Shown here piece after piece: positions 10,904 through 61,766 of a stretch of 64,000 nt of DNA (its first letter is position 1; each line of letters starts with the position of its first letter). The notes below the pieces were generated by a model, which saw only the letters and a program-made list of their open reading frames with translations, was not told where the DNA came from and ran no database searches. Both the position numbers and the translations under genes were made by a program. This DNA comes from Shimia sagamensis (lineage in GTDB: Bacteria; Pseudomonadota; Alphaproteobacteria; Rhodobacterales; Rhodobacteraceae), in contig NZ_FXTY01000007.1 in the NCBI RefSeq assembly GCF_900182745.1, forward strand, positions 62,001-126,000. The letters are read 5' to 3'.

Positions 10904-11656
10904 TCAGAAAAATATGTCTGCCGCGGGAATGGCCACGCGGCCTTTTGCGGTCTTCAACACCAGATTGCCCTGCGTGTCCACCGTTTCGAAAGTTCCGGTC
11001 GTTTCGTCGCGGGTTGTGCGGGCAGTGATAACCTCGCCGATGCGCGCTGCGCGGGTCAGCCAAGCGGTGCGTATTGGTTCAAAACCATAGGTGACAAACT
11101 GCGTTTCCCATCGGGCGTAGGCAGCGGCAAGGACGTCGAGGAATTCTTCAGGAGTGACAGAAGCGCCTGTTTCACTGAGCAGAGAGACAGGGGGCGTCGC
11201 TTGAGTTTCCACGGCCTCGGTACCAGGCGCATGGGCCAAGTTTACACCAATACCGATGGCGATATGGCTGACGGTGCCACCTGCCATCCCCGCGCTTTCC
11301 AGAAGGATGCCTGCAACTTTGCCGCCGTTCAAAAGCACGTCATTGGGCCATTTCAGCGCAAGGCCTTCGCTCCGCCCCGAGACCGCGACAAAGGCGTCAT
11401 AGAGAGCCAAGGAAGCCACAAAAGAGCGCAAGGCCACTTGGTCTGGCGCTTCTGCTGGGCGCATCACCAGCGTTCCGGCAAAATTGCCCGTTGGATCAAC
11501 CCACGCCCTGCCCCGACGGCCCCGGCCTTGGGTTTGGCGCAGGCCCAAAATCCATTCAGGGCCAGCCAGCTCAGGCGCAATGCGGGCGGCTTCGGCGTTT
11601 GTGCTGTCCACTTTGGCCAAAACGCGGCGTCCGTATCCTTCAGGCCAGTTGATCAT
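10904..11656 (-). CDS. birA: Biotin--[acetyl-CoA-carboxylase] ligase
   Basis: 250 residues. It attaches biotin to carboxylase carrier domains, for example the AMKM site of mccA in this window. The biotinyl-AMP loop GRGRRGRAWVDP lies near residue 48 and the KWPNDVLLNGGKVAGIL core near residue 107. There is no N-terminal helix-turn-helix, so it is a class I ligase without repressor function. ATG 11656 (MINWPEG) is preferred over an in-frame TTG at 11674. An intrinsic terminator lies between nuoN and birA, so birA probably has its own promoter or depends on readthrough. Confidence 0.92.
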   Translation of the reverse strand: MINWPEGYGRRVLAKVDSTNAEAARIAPELAGPEWILGLRQTQGRGRRGRAWVDPTGNFAGTLVMRPAEAPDQVALRSFVASLALYDAFVAVSGRSEGLALKWPNDVLLNGGKVAGILLESAGMAGGTVSHIAIGIGVNLAHAPGTEAVETQATPPVSLLSETGASVTPEEFLDVLAAAYARWETQFVTYGFEPIRTAWLTRAARIGEVITARTTRDETTGTFETVDTQGNLVLKTAKGRVAIPAADIFF

Positions 11657-56955: not shown

Positions 56956-57420
56956 ATGGCCGCAAATCTCGATGACATTGACCGTCGCCTGCTGACAGCG
57001 GTGCAGAAGAACAATCGGCTAACGGCGGATGAGCTGGGTGAGATTGCCGGTGTGTCACGCTCGGCAGTGCAGCGCCGGCTTAAGCGCTTTCGCGATGAGG
57101 GTATTGTGGAGGCGGATATCTCGGTGGTCTCGGCCAAAGCTGTGGGGCGGCCAATGACCTTTGTGGTGGAGGTTGAGATGGAGCGGGAGCGCACGGATCT
57201 GCTTGATGAATTCCGCCGCTCGATGCTCAAGCTCGATGATGTACAGCAATGCTACTACGTCACCGGACAGGCGGATTTTATTCTGGTGGTGACCGCGCCT
57301 GACATGACCGCCTATGAGGAGTTCAGCCGCCACGTGTTCAATGACAACCCAAACATTCGCCGGTTTCACAGCAATGTGGTGATTGATCGGGTGAAAGCTG
57401 GGTTACAGGTGCCGGTGTGA
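56956..57420 (+). CDS. Lrp/AsnC-family transcriptional regulator
   Basis: 154 residues. Helix-turn-helix in the first 55 residues (DDIDRRLLTAVQKNNRLTADELGEIAGVSRSAVQRRLKRF), then the RAM ligand domain with VVEVEMERERTDLLDEF and YYVTGQADFILVV. ATG 56956 is supported by GGGAG upstream. It is divergent from the catabolic cluster, so the amino acid or derivative handled there is the likely effector. Ectoine clusters also carry an AsnC-type gene, which adds to the resemblance. Confidence 0.92.
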   Translation: MAANLDDIDRRLLTAVQKNNRLTADELGEIAGVSRSAVQRRLKRFRDEGIVEADISVVSAKAVGRPMTFVVEVEMERERTDLLDEFRRSMLKLDDVQQCYYVTGQADFILVVTAPDMTAYEEFSRHVFNDNPNIRRFHSNVVIDRVKAGLQVPV

Positions 57421-57460
57421 GCGCTGCGCCACGTCGGTAGCCACGCGCTGGACGTCAGTA

Positions 57461-57598
57461 TCAGGGGCCAATCACAGGTGTTGGAAAGGCCTGTATCACC
57501 ACAAAGGCAACAATGGCTGAGAGAATAAGGAAGAGGGCTGCAACTTTCAAATCGCCGCACCAAGAGTGCCGACGGCAGTAGGCGGTTATGTGTTTCAT
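57461..57598 (-). CDS. CxxHxxC membrane microprotein, copy 1
   Basis: 45 residues: a short N-terminal part with Cys8, His11 and Cys14 (CRRHSWC), a single transmembrane helix (about 18-36, VAALFLILSAIVAFVVIQA) and the tail FPTPVIGP. GAGAA lies a few bases before the ATG. It shares length, motif positions and Pro-rich tail with the second small gene at 57736-57876 on the same strand, which is the main evidence that both are real. No known family. A longer open frame upstream exists but lacks this pattern. Confidence 0.6.
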   Translation of the reverse strand: MKHITAYCRRHSWCGDLKVAALFLILSAIVAFVVIQAFPTPVIGP

Positions 57599-57685
57599 GT
57601 CTGTTCTCGCGTGTTGATGACACGCTACAGGTGGTAGCGCCAACAGAGACTGCATTCAGAAATCGCGACAGTGATTAGGGATGTG

Positions 57686-57705
57686 GTGCCAAAAGCAATT
57701 GGCAC
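57686..57705 (-). promoter_or_regulatory. Hairpin between the two microprotein genes
   Basis: GTGCCAA (57686-57692) and TTGGCAC (57699-57705) form a 7-bp stem with a six-base loop. It lies between the stop of copy 2 and the start of copy 1 and has no U-run. Confidence 0.45.
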
Positions 57706-57735
57706 TCAAAACTAAAGTAAGCTCTCCAATGGGCT

Positions 57736-57876
57736 TCAGGGTGCGGGATCAATTGTGTTTGGCACCGTGTAAATCACCAAAGAGGCCACGCCATAGGCGA
57801 TACCAAGAAACATGGCAGCCAGCATGATGTTTCGGCAGAAATCGTGTTTTTCACAGAATTTTTGAAAACGCCCCAT
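57736..57876 (-). CDS. CxxHxxC membrane microprotein, copy 2
   Basis: 46 residues: Cys8, His11 and Cys14 (CEKHDFC), then a transmembrane helix (about 17-38, MLAAMFLGIAYGVASLVIY) and the tail PNTIDPAP. AGGA lies seven bases before the ATG. The C-x2-H-x2-C motif falls at exactly the same residue numbers as in copy 1, and both helices are preceded by a charged pair and followed by a P-rich tail. The pair could bind a metal or haem at the cytoplasmic membrane face; this is inference. Confidence 0.62.
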   Translation of the reverse strand: MGRFQKFCEKHDFCRNIMLAAMFLGIAYGVASLVIYTVPNTIDPAP

Positions 57877-58616
57877 AGTCGTTCCTAGTGCCAAGGTCCC
57901 GTTTGACGTCAGGCCCTCCCCAAAAAGGCGCAGAACTCACAAACCAGACAAGTTACGGGGGAACCGTGCCGGTTTTGGGTGGGAAGCGACATGGGAATGG
58001 GGGGGAAGTGATCCCCAGAACCGGAGGTTGAGGGGGACAGAATCCCTTCGCGCATGTCGCAATTCAGTGGGACAAAAATCGAAAACTCACGCCTCCAACA
58101 GTCTGCGCATCTAAATAGGCACAAGTATCAAAAGCCAATTTTCGCTGTGCGCTGCAGCCGTTTTCGTCGCGCTACACATCTAGAACTCTCCTCTTGCAGA
58201 AACCGTTGACGTTTTAGCAACCCTAAGGATATAATTCGACTTGCAAAAGATATATCTACCATACATCTTTAAGCGCAGATTTCAGTGGGCGAGGTTTGAC
58301 ATGAGTAAGCAAATTCAATCCTACGTTGTCGAAAACGGATGGTTTTTATGGAGCCACCGATCAGTCTAACCAGCCCTTTTTTCCACGGTGCGTATGCCGA
58401 CCAATGCAATCGAAAAGCGATCGCGTAGCAACTGGCTGGCATGAGTGGCAAGCCGCACCCGGAAAATCAAAGTTTCGCGCATTTCATACAGAAAGGAGAG
58501 CGTCGGCGCTCCGCGTTTGCACTTGACCAATGCAAACACAACAGATTTCGCGCCTTTTGTATTATATTTCATATGCTTGTGTGTTTAAATCGATACTTGC
58601 CAAGGACGAGGTACCA
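57877..58616. other. Gene-poor, AT-richer stretch
   Basis: 740 bases with only short unsupported frames on either strand. It contains a TGACGTCA palindrome (57904-57911) upstream of microprotein copy 2 and AT-rich runs near 58225-58262. A fragment on the minus strand (58366-58572) may be coding debris, but I cannot identify it. I see no tRNA or other RNA gene. Confidence 0.5.
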
Positions 58617-59045
58617 ATGTCCAAAGAACTATTAAAAGAATGGATTGAAGATGGTTGGCTCACGGGAGACCAGGCCACAATAGATAGAATACTCCCAGCG
58701 AGTTTTTCCGTCTCAGGCTTCTCGAGCGCCGAAAATTTTCCCAAATCAGATTTTTCAGAACTCGTAGACCTGTTTAGAAAAATTACCGGCCCAGGCCGGA
58801 TCAATCTAACAAACTTGATTGAGAATCCCCCCTGGTTTGCCGCGAAGTTCCTCTTAACCGCACGCCCTCCTGCACAGTCAGGCAATGTAGAAATCGACGT
58901 CATGCTGTTGGCCAAGTTCGAAGATGGCGTAATGACAGAACATCACACTGCAATTGACTACTTTTCCCTGTTTTCACAACTGGGACAATTACCGCCAAAC
59001 GCATTGGAGCACTGCCTTACAGGGGAACGCCTAACTTGGAGTTGA
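58617..59045 (+). CDS. NTF2/SnoaL-like protein
   Basis: 142 residues. The N-terminal helices LKEWIEDGWLTGDQATIDRIL and the C-terminal VMTEHHTAIDYFSLFSQLGQLP match the pattern of SnoaL-like (NTF2 superfamily) proteins, a cone-shaped fold used by isomerases, hydrolases and binding proteins. No catalytic residues can be assigned. ATG 58617 has AAGGACGAGG upstream. It overlaps the PilZ-like gene by ten bases. AT content is higher than in most of the window, possibly signalling later acquisition. Confidence 0.75.
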   Translation: MSKELLKEWIEDGWLTGDQATIDRILPASFSVSGFSSAENFPKSDFSELVDLFRKITGPGRINLTNLIENPPWFAAKFLLTARPPAQSGNVEIDVMLLAKFEDGVMTEHHTAIDYFSLFSQLGQLPPNALEHCLTGERLTWS

Positions 59046-59350
59046 TTGGAAATCGGCGGCATCTAGACAACCGTAAATCCGGAAAACGACATGAAAAACA
59101 ATTGGCTTGCGAAATTCAATTTGAGAACCATTCCTTGGGCGCCGAGACTGTGGACATAGGCGCTCATGGTGCATGCATCGAAGCCAGCCTCAATGTTCAC
59201 AGAGTGGTCTTTCAGAGCGAAATTCGAATAGTCCTCCCTGGGCCTGTATCTCGAAAAGCAAAAATTGTTTGGAGTTCCGGCACCCGAATGGGGTTAAATT
59301 TTGCCATTCCCCTTAGGACGTCGCAGCTTGAGGCTCTCCTCAGAAAGTGA
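59036..59350 (+). CDS. PilZ-like domain protein, TTG start
   Basis: 104 residues. PilZ-type features are the basic N-terminus (NRRHLDNRKSGKRHEKQL), ETVDIGAHGACIEA in place of the D/NxSxxG motif, and a final KIVWSSGTRMGLNFA strand. PilZ domains bind cyclic di-GMP; here DIGAHG only partly matches the binding motif, so binding is uncertain. No ATG is usable: the frame starts with TTG at 59036, with GGGGAA about eight bases upstream, overlapping the NTF2-like gene; TTG 59042 is an alternative. Confidence 0.65.
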   Translation: MELIGNRRHLDNRKSGKRHEKQLACEIQFENHSLGAETVDIGAHGACIEASLNVHRVVFQSEIRIVLPGPVSRKAKIVWSSGTRMGLNFAIPLRTSQLEALLRK

Positions 59351-59445: not shown

Positions 59446-61662
59446 TTAGCCGATGATCGCGTTCAACGTTGTAGATGGACGCATCACTTTGGCTTTCAGC
59501 TCCACCGATGGGCGGAAGTAGCCGCCAATATCAGCCGCTGGGCCTTGGGCCGCTGCGAGCTCGGCCAGGATGGCCTCTTCGCCGTCGGCCAGAGCTTTGG
59601 CAACACCTGCGAACTCAGCTGCGAGATCGGCGTCGTCAGATTGGGCTGCCAGGGCTTCGGCCCAGTAGCGAGCGAACCAGTAGTGGCTGTCGCGGTTGTC
59701 TGGCTGACCCACTTTGCGCGATGGGCTGCGGTTGTCGTCCAGAATGCCTTGGGTGGCAGCTTCGGCTGCGACACCGAGAACACCGGCTTTGGCGTTGCCT
59801 TTGACGTCCGCGAGGAAGTTCAGACTTTCCCCAAGGGCACAGAATTCCCCCATGGAGTCCCAGCGCAGGTGGTTTTCTTCGACCAACTGCTGCACGTGCT
59901 TTGGTGCGGAACCACCAGCGCCGGTTTCAAACAACCCGCCACCTTTCATCAGCTTCACGATGGAGAGCATTTTGGCAGAGGTGCCCAGCTCGAGGATCGG
60001 GAAGAGGTCAGTCAGGTAGTCACGCAGCACGTTGCCGGTGATGGCGATGCTGTCGTTGCCGGCAGTGATGGTTTTCAGGGACTGCGCGGTGGCCTCACGA
60101 GGCGCCATGATCTGGAACAGGTCAGCTTTGCCAGCCGCTTCCAGCGCAGGGGTCACGTATTTGATCAGCTCGGCATCGTGGGCGCGGTTTGCGTCCAGCC
60201 AGAAGATCGCCTCAGAGCCGGTCAGGCGCTGACGGTCCAGTGCCAGTTCGATCCAGTTCTCGATTGGCGCCTGCTTCACGGTGCAGGAGCGCCAGATGTC
60301 GCCAGTTTCCACGTCGTGGGAGTGCAGCACGTCGCCGTTTTCCAGAACGATGCGGATGGAGCCCGCCGCTGGGGCTTCAAACGTGGTTGGGTGCGAGCCG
60401 TACTCTTCGGCTTTCTGCGCCATCAGGCCGACGTTGGCGACGGAGCCTGCGGTGGTTACGTCGAGCGCGCCGTTGGCTTTGAAGAAGTTGATGCTCTCGT
60501 CATAGATCGTGGCATAGCAGCGATCCGGGATCACACAGTTGGTGTCACCCTTGTTGCCAGCTTCGTCCCAGCCTTTGCCGCCTGCGCGGATCACAGCTGG
60601 CATGGAGGCGTCGATGATAACATCGGAGGGCACGTGCAGGTTGGTGATGCCTTTGTCGCTGTCGACCATATACATGGACGGACGGGACAGCGCGGCGATC
60701 TCTGCTTTGATGGCATCCGCGTTACCCAGCGTGTCGATGGCGGCCAGAACCGCACCCAGACCGGAGTTCGGGGAACCACCAGCGGCTGCGATGGCGTCGC
60801 CGTGGGCGTCCCATACTGGGCCAAGCCAGGCTTTTACCGCGTGGCCAAAGATGATTGGGTCGGAGACCTTCATCATGGTGGCTTTCATGTGCAGCGAGAA
60901 CATGGTGCCGTCGGCTTTGGTGTCTTCGATCGCGTCTGCGAGGAAGGCGCCCAGTGCCGCGGCGGACATGAAGGTGGCGTCTGCGATGGTGCCAGCGGCC
61001 AGCGGGTAGCTGTCTTTCAGCACGGTCACGGCGCCGTCTTTGCCAACAAATTCGATCTTCGCGTCACCGGCTTGCGCCTCAGAGATGGTCGCGGATTTTT
61101 CGTTGGCGTAAAAGTCGTTGCCCGGCATGGAGCTGACTTTGGTTTTGGAAGAGCTTTCCCAGGTGCCCATAGAGTGTGGGTTGTTCTGAGCGTAGTTTTT
61201 CACGGCACGGGCGGCGCGGCGGTCAGAGTTGCCTTCGCGCAGAACCGGGTTCACAGCGGAACCTTTGATGCCATCAAAACGCGCGCGGATCGCCTTATCT
61301 TCGTCGGTCTGTGGGTCTTCAGGGTAAGACGGGATGTTGTAGCCCTGGCTTTGCAGCTCTTCGATGGCCGCGACCAACTGAGGCACAGAGGCAGAGATGT
61401 TTGGCAGCTTGATGACGTTGGCGTCCGGTGTTTTCACCAGTTCGCCCAGCGCGGCCAGCTCGTCGGACTGACGCTGATCTGCGGACAGGTTCTCCGGGAA
61501 GGTGGCAATGATGCGACCGGCAAGGGAAATGTCCGGCGTTCCAACGGTGATACCAGCGGCGGACACAAACTTGCGAATGATCGGCAGGAAGGAGGCGGAG
61601 GCCAGCTCAGGCGCTTCGTCTACAATGGTATACAATATGTCGGGCGATTTTTTATCAGCCAT
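59446..61662 (-). CDS. icd: Isocitrate dehydrogenase, NADP-dependent, monomeric type
   Basis: 738 residues, the length of the monomeric enzyme (about 740) rather than the ~420 of the dimeric one. It decarboxylates isocitrate to 2-oxoglutarate with NADPH formation in the TCA cycle. Diagnostic stretches are [26 protein letters not shown] near 115, [14 protein letters not shown] near 170, and [22 protein letters not shown] 61662 ([18 protein letters not shown]) is preferred over a GTG nine bases upstream. Monocistronic, with a clear terminator. Confidence 0.95.
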
Positions 61663-61766
61663 GTTTCTCACTACCTTTTTTGCGTCAGGGGTGTTCTGTG
61701 ACTTGCGGGATCAGGTCGGGATGACCTGACAAAATCCGTGTGGTTCTCCTCCGCCCTCATGCAGAC

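Follow-up and report, generated by a model that had tools for sequence, protein, structure and literature searches.

Tandem predicted membrane microproteins in Shimia sagamensis and the evidence for a Shimia-restricted family

Can two adjacent reading frames of fewer than 50 codons in Shimia sagamensis be real genes, and if so, what might their products do at the membrane? The window (the whole stretch of 64,000 nucleotides that was analysed) contains, between an lrp regulator gene and SnoaL-like, PilZ and icd genes, an array of two such frames (Table 1). The original prediction described tandem genes for membrane microproteins that share Cys8, His11 and Cys14, and offered a metal, haem or redox function at the membrane as a guess. 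We found that the two genes are almost certainly real and belong to a family restricted to Shimia. The Cys-His-Cys cluster does not define this family.

Table 1. Features of the array and its flanks in the window
Feature	Position	Strand	Remark
Lrp/AsnC-type regulator (lrp)	56956..57420	plus	convergent with the array
Subfamily A microprotein	57461..57598	minus	45 aa: MKHITAYCRRHSWCGDLK + membrane helix + FPTPVIGP
A-gene leader	57599..57668	minus	partly common to A/C copies elsewhere; foldable over the ribosome-binding site
Subfamily B microprotein	57736..57876	minus	46 aa: MGRFQKFCEKHDFCRNIM + membrane helix + PNTIDPAP
Monomeric isocitrate dehydrogenase (icd)	59446..61671	minus	far flank of the block in 7/7 carriers

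Reading frames, coding evidence and family census

The description of two tandem minus-strand genes holds for the frames and their lengths, for Cys8, His11 and Cys14 at the same residue numbers in both proteins, and for the Pro-containing tails. The full proteins are MKHITAYCRRHSWCGDLKVAALFLILSAIVAFVVIQAFPTPVIGP (A) and MGRFQKFCEKHDFCRNIMLAAMFLGIAYGVASLVIYTVPNTIDPAP (B). Each has a single hydrophobic span at residues 17-35, which is also the best 19-residue hydrophobic span in all 15 copies of the family described below. Purine-rich sites precede both genes as claimed, AGGA 6 nt 5' of the ATG of the upstream gene (B) and GCGAG 7 nt 5' of the ATG of the downstream gene (A), and a site of this kind lies 4-7 nt before the start in 15 of 15 copies; these calls come from a permissive motif list drawn up with the sequences already in view. 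Alignment places the start at an ATG in 12 copies, a TTG in two and a GTG in one. Longer frames from earlier starts are available in the window (64 aa from an ATG at 57655 and 52 aa from a TTG at 57894), and an 85-aa minus-strand frame (57366-57623) overlaps the array. Two points favour the shorter starts: the purine-rich sites, and the subfamily A copy of one genome (G018), which lacks any ATG, GTG or TTG between its aligned ATG and the preceding stop. An in-frame upstream extension, suggested by a common 'ARTD' before the Met, was rejected, as this same G018 copy has no start codon there.

The two window proteins align end to end with 31% identity and retrieve each other weakly in single-protein searches (E 0.002 and 0.003). 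A family profile finds 15 copies in seven of 25 Shimia genomes, with no E-value above 1.9e-20; these strong values arise by construction because the profile was made from the same copies (14 rows, the 15th copy being identical to one row). No copy was found by the family profile at E <= 0.01 in the remaining 18 Shimia genomes. Within the genus, single queries at E <= 0.1 recover the same seven genomes; their best matches range from E 7e-27 to E 0.002, the latter for the divergent copy of G024. The members have 41-46 residues and one hydrophobic helix; the A copy of G016 stops four codons before the end of the window copy. Subfamily A is found in G000 (the window genome), G010, G016, G021 and G018, and subfamily B in these five genomes and G009. 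Subfamily C, with one copy in G009 and two in G016, is an offshoot of subfamily A, and G024 has its single divergent copy. In the gene tree two of the 11 inner branches are well supported, and the C branch has support of 97/96; most other branches are weak, and G024, G000a and G018b form long branches.

The nucleotide changes between copies are those expected of coding sequence under purifying selection. For subfamily A, dN/dS (or pN/pS where dS is saturated; Nei-Gojobori, as for the B and C pairs below) is 0.15-0.28 over nine pairs, and the tenth pair (G000-G010) has no amino-acid and three synonymous differences. The values are 0.05-0.42 over 15 pairs of subfamily B and 0.22, 0.26 and 0.64 over three pairs of subfamily C, so that the 24 A and B pairs with amino-acid differences span 0.05-0.42. 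Synonymous changes thus far outnumber amino-acid changes in A and B. Changes at codon positions 1/2/3 number 63/22/126 in A, 169/124/367 in B and 10/8/20 in C. By segment (residues 2-6, 7-21, 22-36 and 37-end), pN/pS is 1.83, 0.05, 0.27 and 0.97 in A, 0.60, 0.27, 0.25 and 0.37 in B, and 0.12, 2.84, 0.13 and 0.29 in C, where the value of 2.84 is based on very few changes. The segment and codon-position figures for A use four of its five copies, G010 being left out as its protein equals that of the window. Residues 7-21 are the most constrained part of A (pN/pS 0.05, with pS 0.57), and residues 2-6 and 37-end of A show no constraint.

It is very improbable that the frames are non-coding chance ORFs. 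They are short and in none of the searched libraries, and the +2 frame is likewise stop-free in nine of 15 copies, but the third-position bias and the low pN/pS are found in this very frame, which stays open in each of the 15 copies; every copy has a stop in the +1 frame. Neither outcome that would have refuted the original prediction of genes, a lack of homologues or broken frames, was seen, and motif-bearing homologues with an intact frame exist in Shimia. The matching motif positions of the two window proteins are also not due to chance, since A and B are homologous and the homologues of both are under purifying selection.

The suggestion that the family is unannotated stands for the profile libraries searched (Pfam, NCBIfam, PHROGs and PADLOC). 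We found nothing over the cut-off in Pfam (14 alignment rows) or NCBIfam (the two window proteins), no match in PADLOC (the two window proteins), only matches at E 0.04-0.09 in PHROGs (four copies), and no match at E <= 1 among PDB sequences. Two Pfam families, DUF7396 (PF24129) and Jiraiya (PF15038), match the query P0002 weakly (residues 17-35 and 2-39; E 0.04 and 0.011; 14.5 and 15.8 bits, where the cut-offs are 27), and match four and three of 14 members, respectively, at E <= 0.1. These matches were read as hydrophobic-helix noise. No paper on this family was found among open-licence papers.

The proposed search for homologues across the Rhodobacteraceae succeeded within Shimia, but beyond the genus only marginal partial matches were found. 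Among 60 relatives, every match to the P0002 query at E <= 0.1 lies within Shimia, and the P0001 query gives partial matches in five non-Shimia genomes (E 0.02-0.10), two of them with stops. Profile searches return partial matches in six genomes outside Shimia among 394 genomes of the family, and in five outside the genus among 390 genomes of the order (139 genera), two of these being the same as in the family search. All of these profile matches are partial (E 0.001-0.01, 18-20 bits) and are taken as noise, a reading based on the sequences of the six from the family search; at most 18 candidates were scored per genome in overlapping samples, so that rare relatives could be missed. One of the six family-search matches (L036) shares a short SWCG/MVF-like stretch and was rejected as it is antisense to a longer frame, and the other five lie in longer frames without the pattern. 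G248 is the only other genome of the family with the regulator at E <= 1e-78; no small hydrophobic ORF lies beside this regulator, and the genus of G248 (three genomes) gives one marginal partial match. A scan of genome contigs with A-type patterns detected seven loci, four of them in the family; at the other three (Halomonas, Dyadobacter and Sporichthya) 14-30 residues are matched. No relative was found in viral contigs (A type), plasmids (P0001) or phages (P0002).

Genomic block, cassette exchange and leader

Synteny is found for 14 of 15 copies, which lie inside the same lrp-icd block. The ammonia-lyase, lrp, array, icd and glpD are present in the blocks of all seven carriers and the thioesterase in six of seven; lrp adjoins the array in all seven, with an HTH gene intervening in G024. 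The lrp orthologue (E <= 1e-70) is detected in 11 of 25 Shimia genomes, including all seven carriers, and in the four lrp-positive non-carriers no small ORF within the 1.5 kb beyond lrp passes the hydrophobicity filter.

Other genes of the block vary. The window has a weak SnoaL-like frame (58617-59045, E 0.0097) that overlaps a PilZ-domain frame (59036-59350) by 10 bases; both frames also occur in G009 and G021, and neither was detected in the remaining stretches that were compared. The blocks of G016, G018, G021 and G024 contain a small Cro/C1-type HTH gene, which also adjoins lrp in G011 and G003; around the array of G000, G009 or G010 no such gene was found. The Pfam HTH match is over the cut-off for the gene of G016 and under it for that of G024. 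These two genes (L100 8244-8516 and L105 9091-9372, respectively) encode a Cys-containing tail, with SGCCG in G016.

The A genes of G000 and G010 are far more similar than their surroundings: dS is 0.10 in A (three of 33 synonymous sites), 0.71 in B and 0.62 in lrp. Over four 50-base steps, 197 of 200 bases of the A leader and gene agree, compared with 45-48 of 50 bases at the lrp end and 44-45 of 50 in the B gene. The sequence comparison, although a small sample, suggests that the A cassette was recently exchanged between the two lineages; the stretch concerned would be window 57461-57668 and L104 11218-11422 (G010). The fourth copy of G016, of C type, is on another contig (L098 12243-12513, G016:C15) beside the last 34 codons of lrp, and looks like a segmental duplication. 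A DJ-1/PfpI-AraC regulator gene, repeated there in truncated form, and a phage-lysozyme gene (10913-11608, Pfam E 1.7e-39) are located near this displaced copy.

The A and C genes have a leader that B genes lack. The sequence GCGAG(A/G)ACAGAC lies directly 5' of the ATG in all eight A/C copies; across the genus this pattern has eight exact matches, which are these eight copies, and 24 matches with one mismatch, compared with nine matches in all for the reversed pattern used as a control. The 47-base leader pieces fold better than the shuffle mean in eight of eight cases (z -1.3 to -5.05 in seven, -0.67 in G016d). A seven-pair helix is complete in four of the eight leaders and has four to five pairs in the rest (four of seven in the window), and none of the seven pairs changes on both sides among the eight leaders. 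The hairpin is thus a weak lead only, and the conservation of the leader is equally well accounted for by a common promoter or common descent.

The Cys-His-Cys cluster and possible functions

AlphaFold2 models of A and B (15-row alignments) consist of a helix at residues 2-10, a break at 11-12 and a helix at 13-37, with mean pLDDT of 80.0 and 80.8 and pTM of 0.43 and 0.44; these are single-chain models, which cannot show partners, of a lone hydrophobic helix, an easy prediction. Across the 15 copies, residues 1-18 carry a net charge of 0 to +5 and the tail one of 0 or -1, so that the N-terminus with the Cys-His cluster is probably cytoplasmic and the short Pro-containing tail periplasmic. This charge-based orientation is weakened for the B protein of G021, whose N-terminal net charge is zero.

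Not every family member has the C-x2-H-x2-C motif. All three residues are present in 10 of 15 copies (C8 in 10, H11 in 11, C14 in 12), namely five of five A and five of six B copies. All three C copies have lost the whole trio (M or L at 8, Q11, W14), and it is also incomplete in the B copy of G018 (L8) and in G024 (L8 and N11). The columns that are invariant across the family are A31, V34 and P39, and every copy has aromatic residues at positions 7 and 13. The motif as a mark of the family, from which metal, haem or redox work had been proposed, was not upheld. We therefore consider it unlikely that these are metal- or haem-binding or redox microproteins with Cys8-His11-Cys14 as their defining centre, even though the trio persists in most A and B copies, at least one intact copy is kept by six of seven carrier genomes, the trio sits around the predicted helix hinge, and block 7-21 is under the tightest constraint in A. 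That block is not ligand-specific, as it also covers R9, R10, W13, G15, D16, L17 and K18, and the copies that lost the motif keep the alignment and, except for the displaced G016 copy, the neighbours.

CydX and aa3 subunit IV-type subunits are small proteins with a single N-in span. Their size and topology fit the Shimia proteins, which could in principle be additional small subunits of a large complex, respiratory or other. This is rather improbable given that nothing matches over the Pfam and NCBIfam cut-offs, that the genes were not found in 18 of 25 Shimia genomes, which is odd for a core complex, and that there are several diverging copies. The main rival, although itself doubtful, is that the genes encode type I toxin-like membrane peptides silenced by the leader hairpin and/or an antisense RNA. 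The genes are tandem and Shimia-restricted, their products contain cysteines and are small hydrophobic peptides (45-46 aa, span 17-35, predicted helix 13-37) as in this class, and the folding of all eight A/C leaders points the same way. According to the excerpt of PMC8309996, ZorO emerged from a search that looked for small hydrophobic proteins occurring in tandem, and a 5'-UTR structure that covers its ribosome-binding site represses it; HokB has a positive cytoplasmic N-terminus and a periplasmic C-terminus. The tandem genes and a possible leader structure would parallel ZorO, and the inferred orientation of the Shimia peptides is that of HokB (PMC8309996, same excerpt); as portrayed there, HokB, LdrA and ZorO are likewise small and hydrophobic, can be tandem, can carry cysteines and may have leader structure. 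However, most toxins listed in that excerpt have a positively charged C-terminus, unlike the Shimia tail, and the leader lacks covariation, forms an incomplete helix in half of the A/C copies, the window's among them, and is absent from B. A sigma-70 consensus scan for an antisense promoter gives four sites versus 1.2 expected, but the sole plus-strand promoter-like site in the array (57850-57879, 9/12) covers the B start instead of the A leader. Scanning the window with Rfam gives one match, below its cut-off and outside the array. The strong amino-acid constraint on residues 7-21 of A also argues against a toxin; the fast ends of A (2-6 and 37-end) and the restriction to one genus fit a toxin-like or conflict role as well.

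The reading that we prefer, tentatively, is that A and B are a pair of membrane peptides with an accessory or regulatory role for a larger membrane protein. The peptides would bind a transporter, sensor or respiratory enzyme of the inner membrane and alter its activity or stability, in the manner of AcrZ, MgtS and MgtR, and A (or C) and B would probably act together as partners. Cys8-His11-Cys14 would lie at the junction of the predicted helix 2-10 and the membrane helix 13-37, where in the copies with the trio it probably serves for contact or for redox/metal tuning and not as an obligatory fold centre. In line with pairing, six of six multi-copy genomes have exactly one B and at least one A or C; against universal pairing, G024 keeps a single copy, and the pairing may reflect shared descent of a few lineages. 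No partner membrane protein was seen among the neighbours searched, which are a regulator and metabolic enzymes.

AcrZ, MgtS and MgtR are precedents for single-span regulatory microproteins in the excerpt of PMC10710835, and are similar to the Shimia proteins, as far as that excerpt goes, in being membrane peptides of under about 50 aa with a plausible action on a bigger membrane protein. In contrast to them, the Shimia family comes as an A/B pair whose Cys-His cluster is probably cytoplasmic, and it is confined to part of one genus; no relation to the three was found via Pfam or NCBIfam. A long shot is that A and B form an obligate hetero-oligomer that uses its cytoplasmic Cys-His cluster to sense redox state or metal at the membrane, with C as a motif-less partner that gives an insensitive version. 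If true, the hetero-oligomer would be a membrane sensor newly arisen at the level of a genus.

The array represents a lineage-restricted membrane microprotein family that is unlisted in the profile libraries searched. Duplication, motif loss in one branch and a probable cassette exchange can be read directly from its copies, and the family is thus a small natural experiment in the retention and diversification of new membrane peptides.
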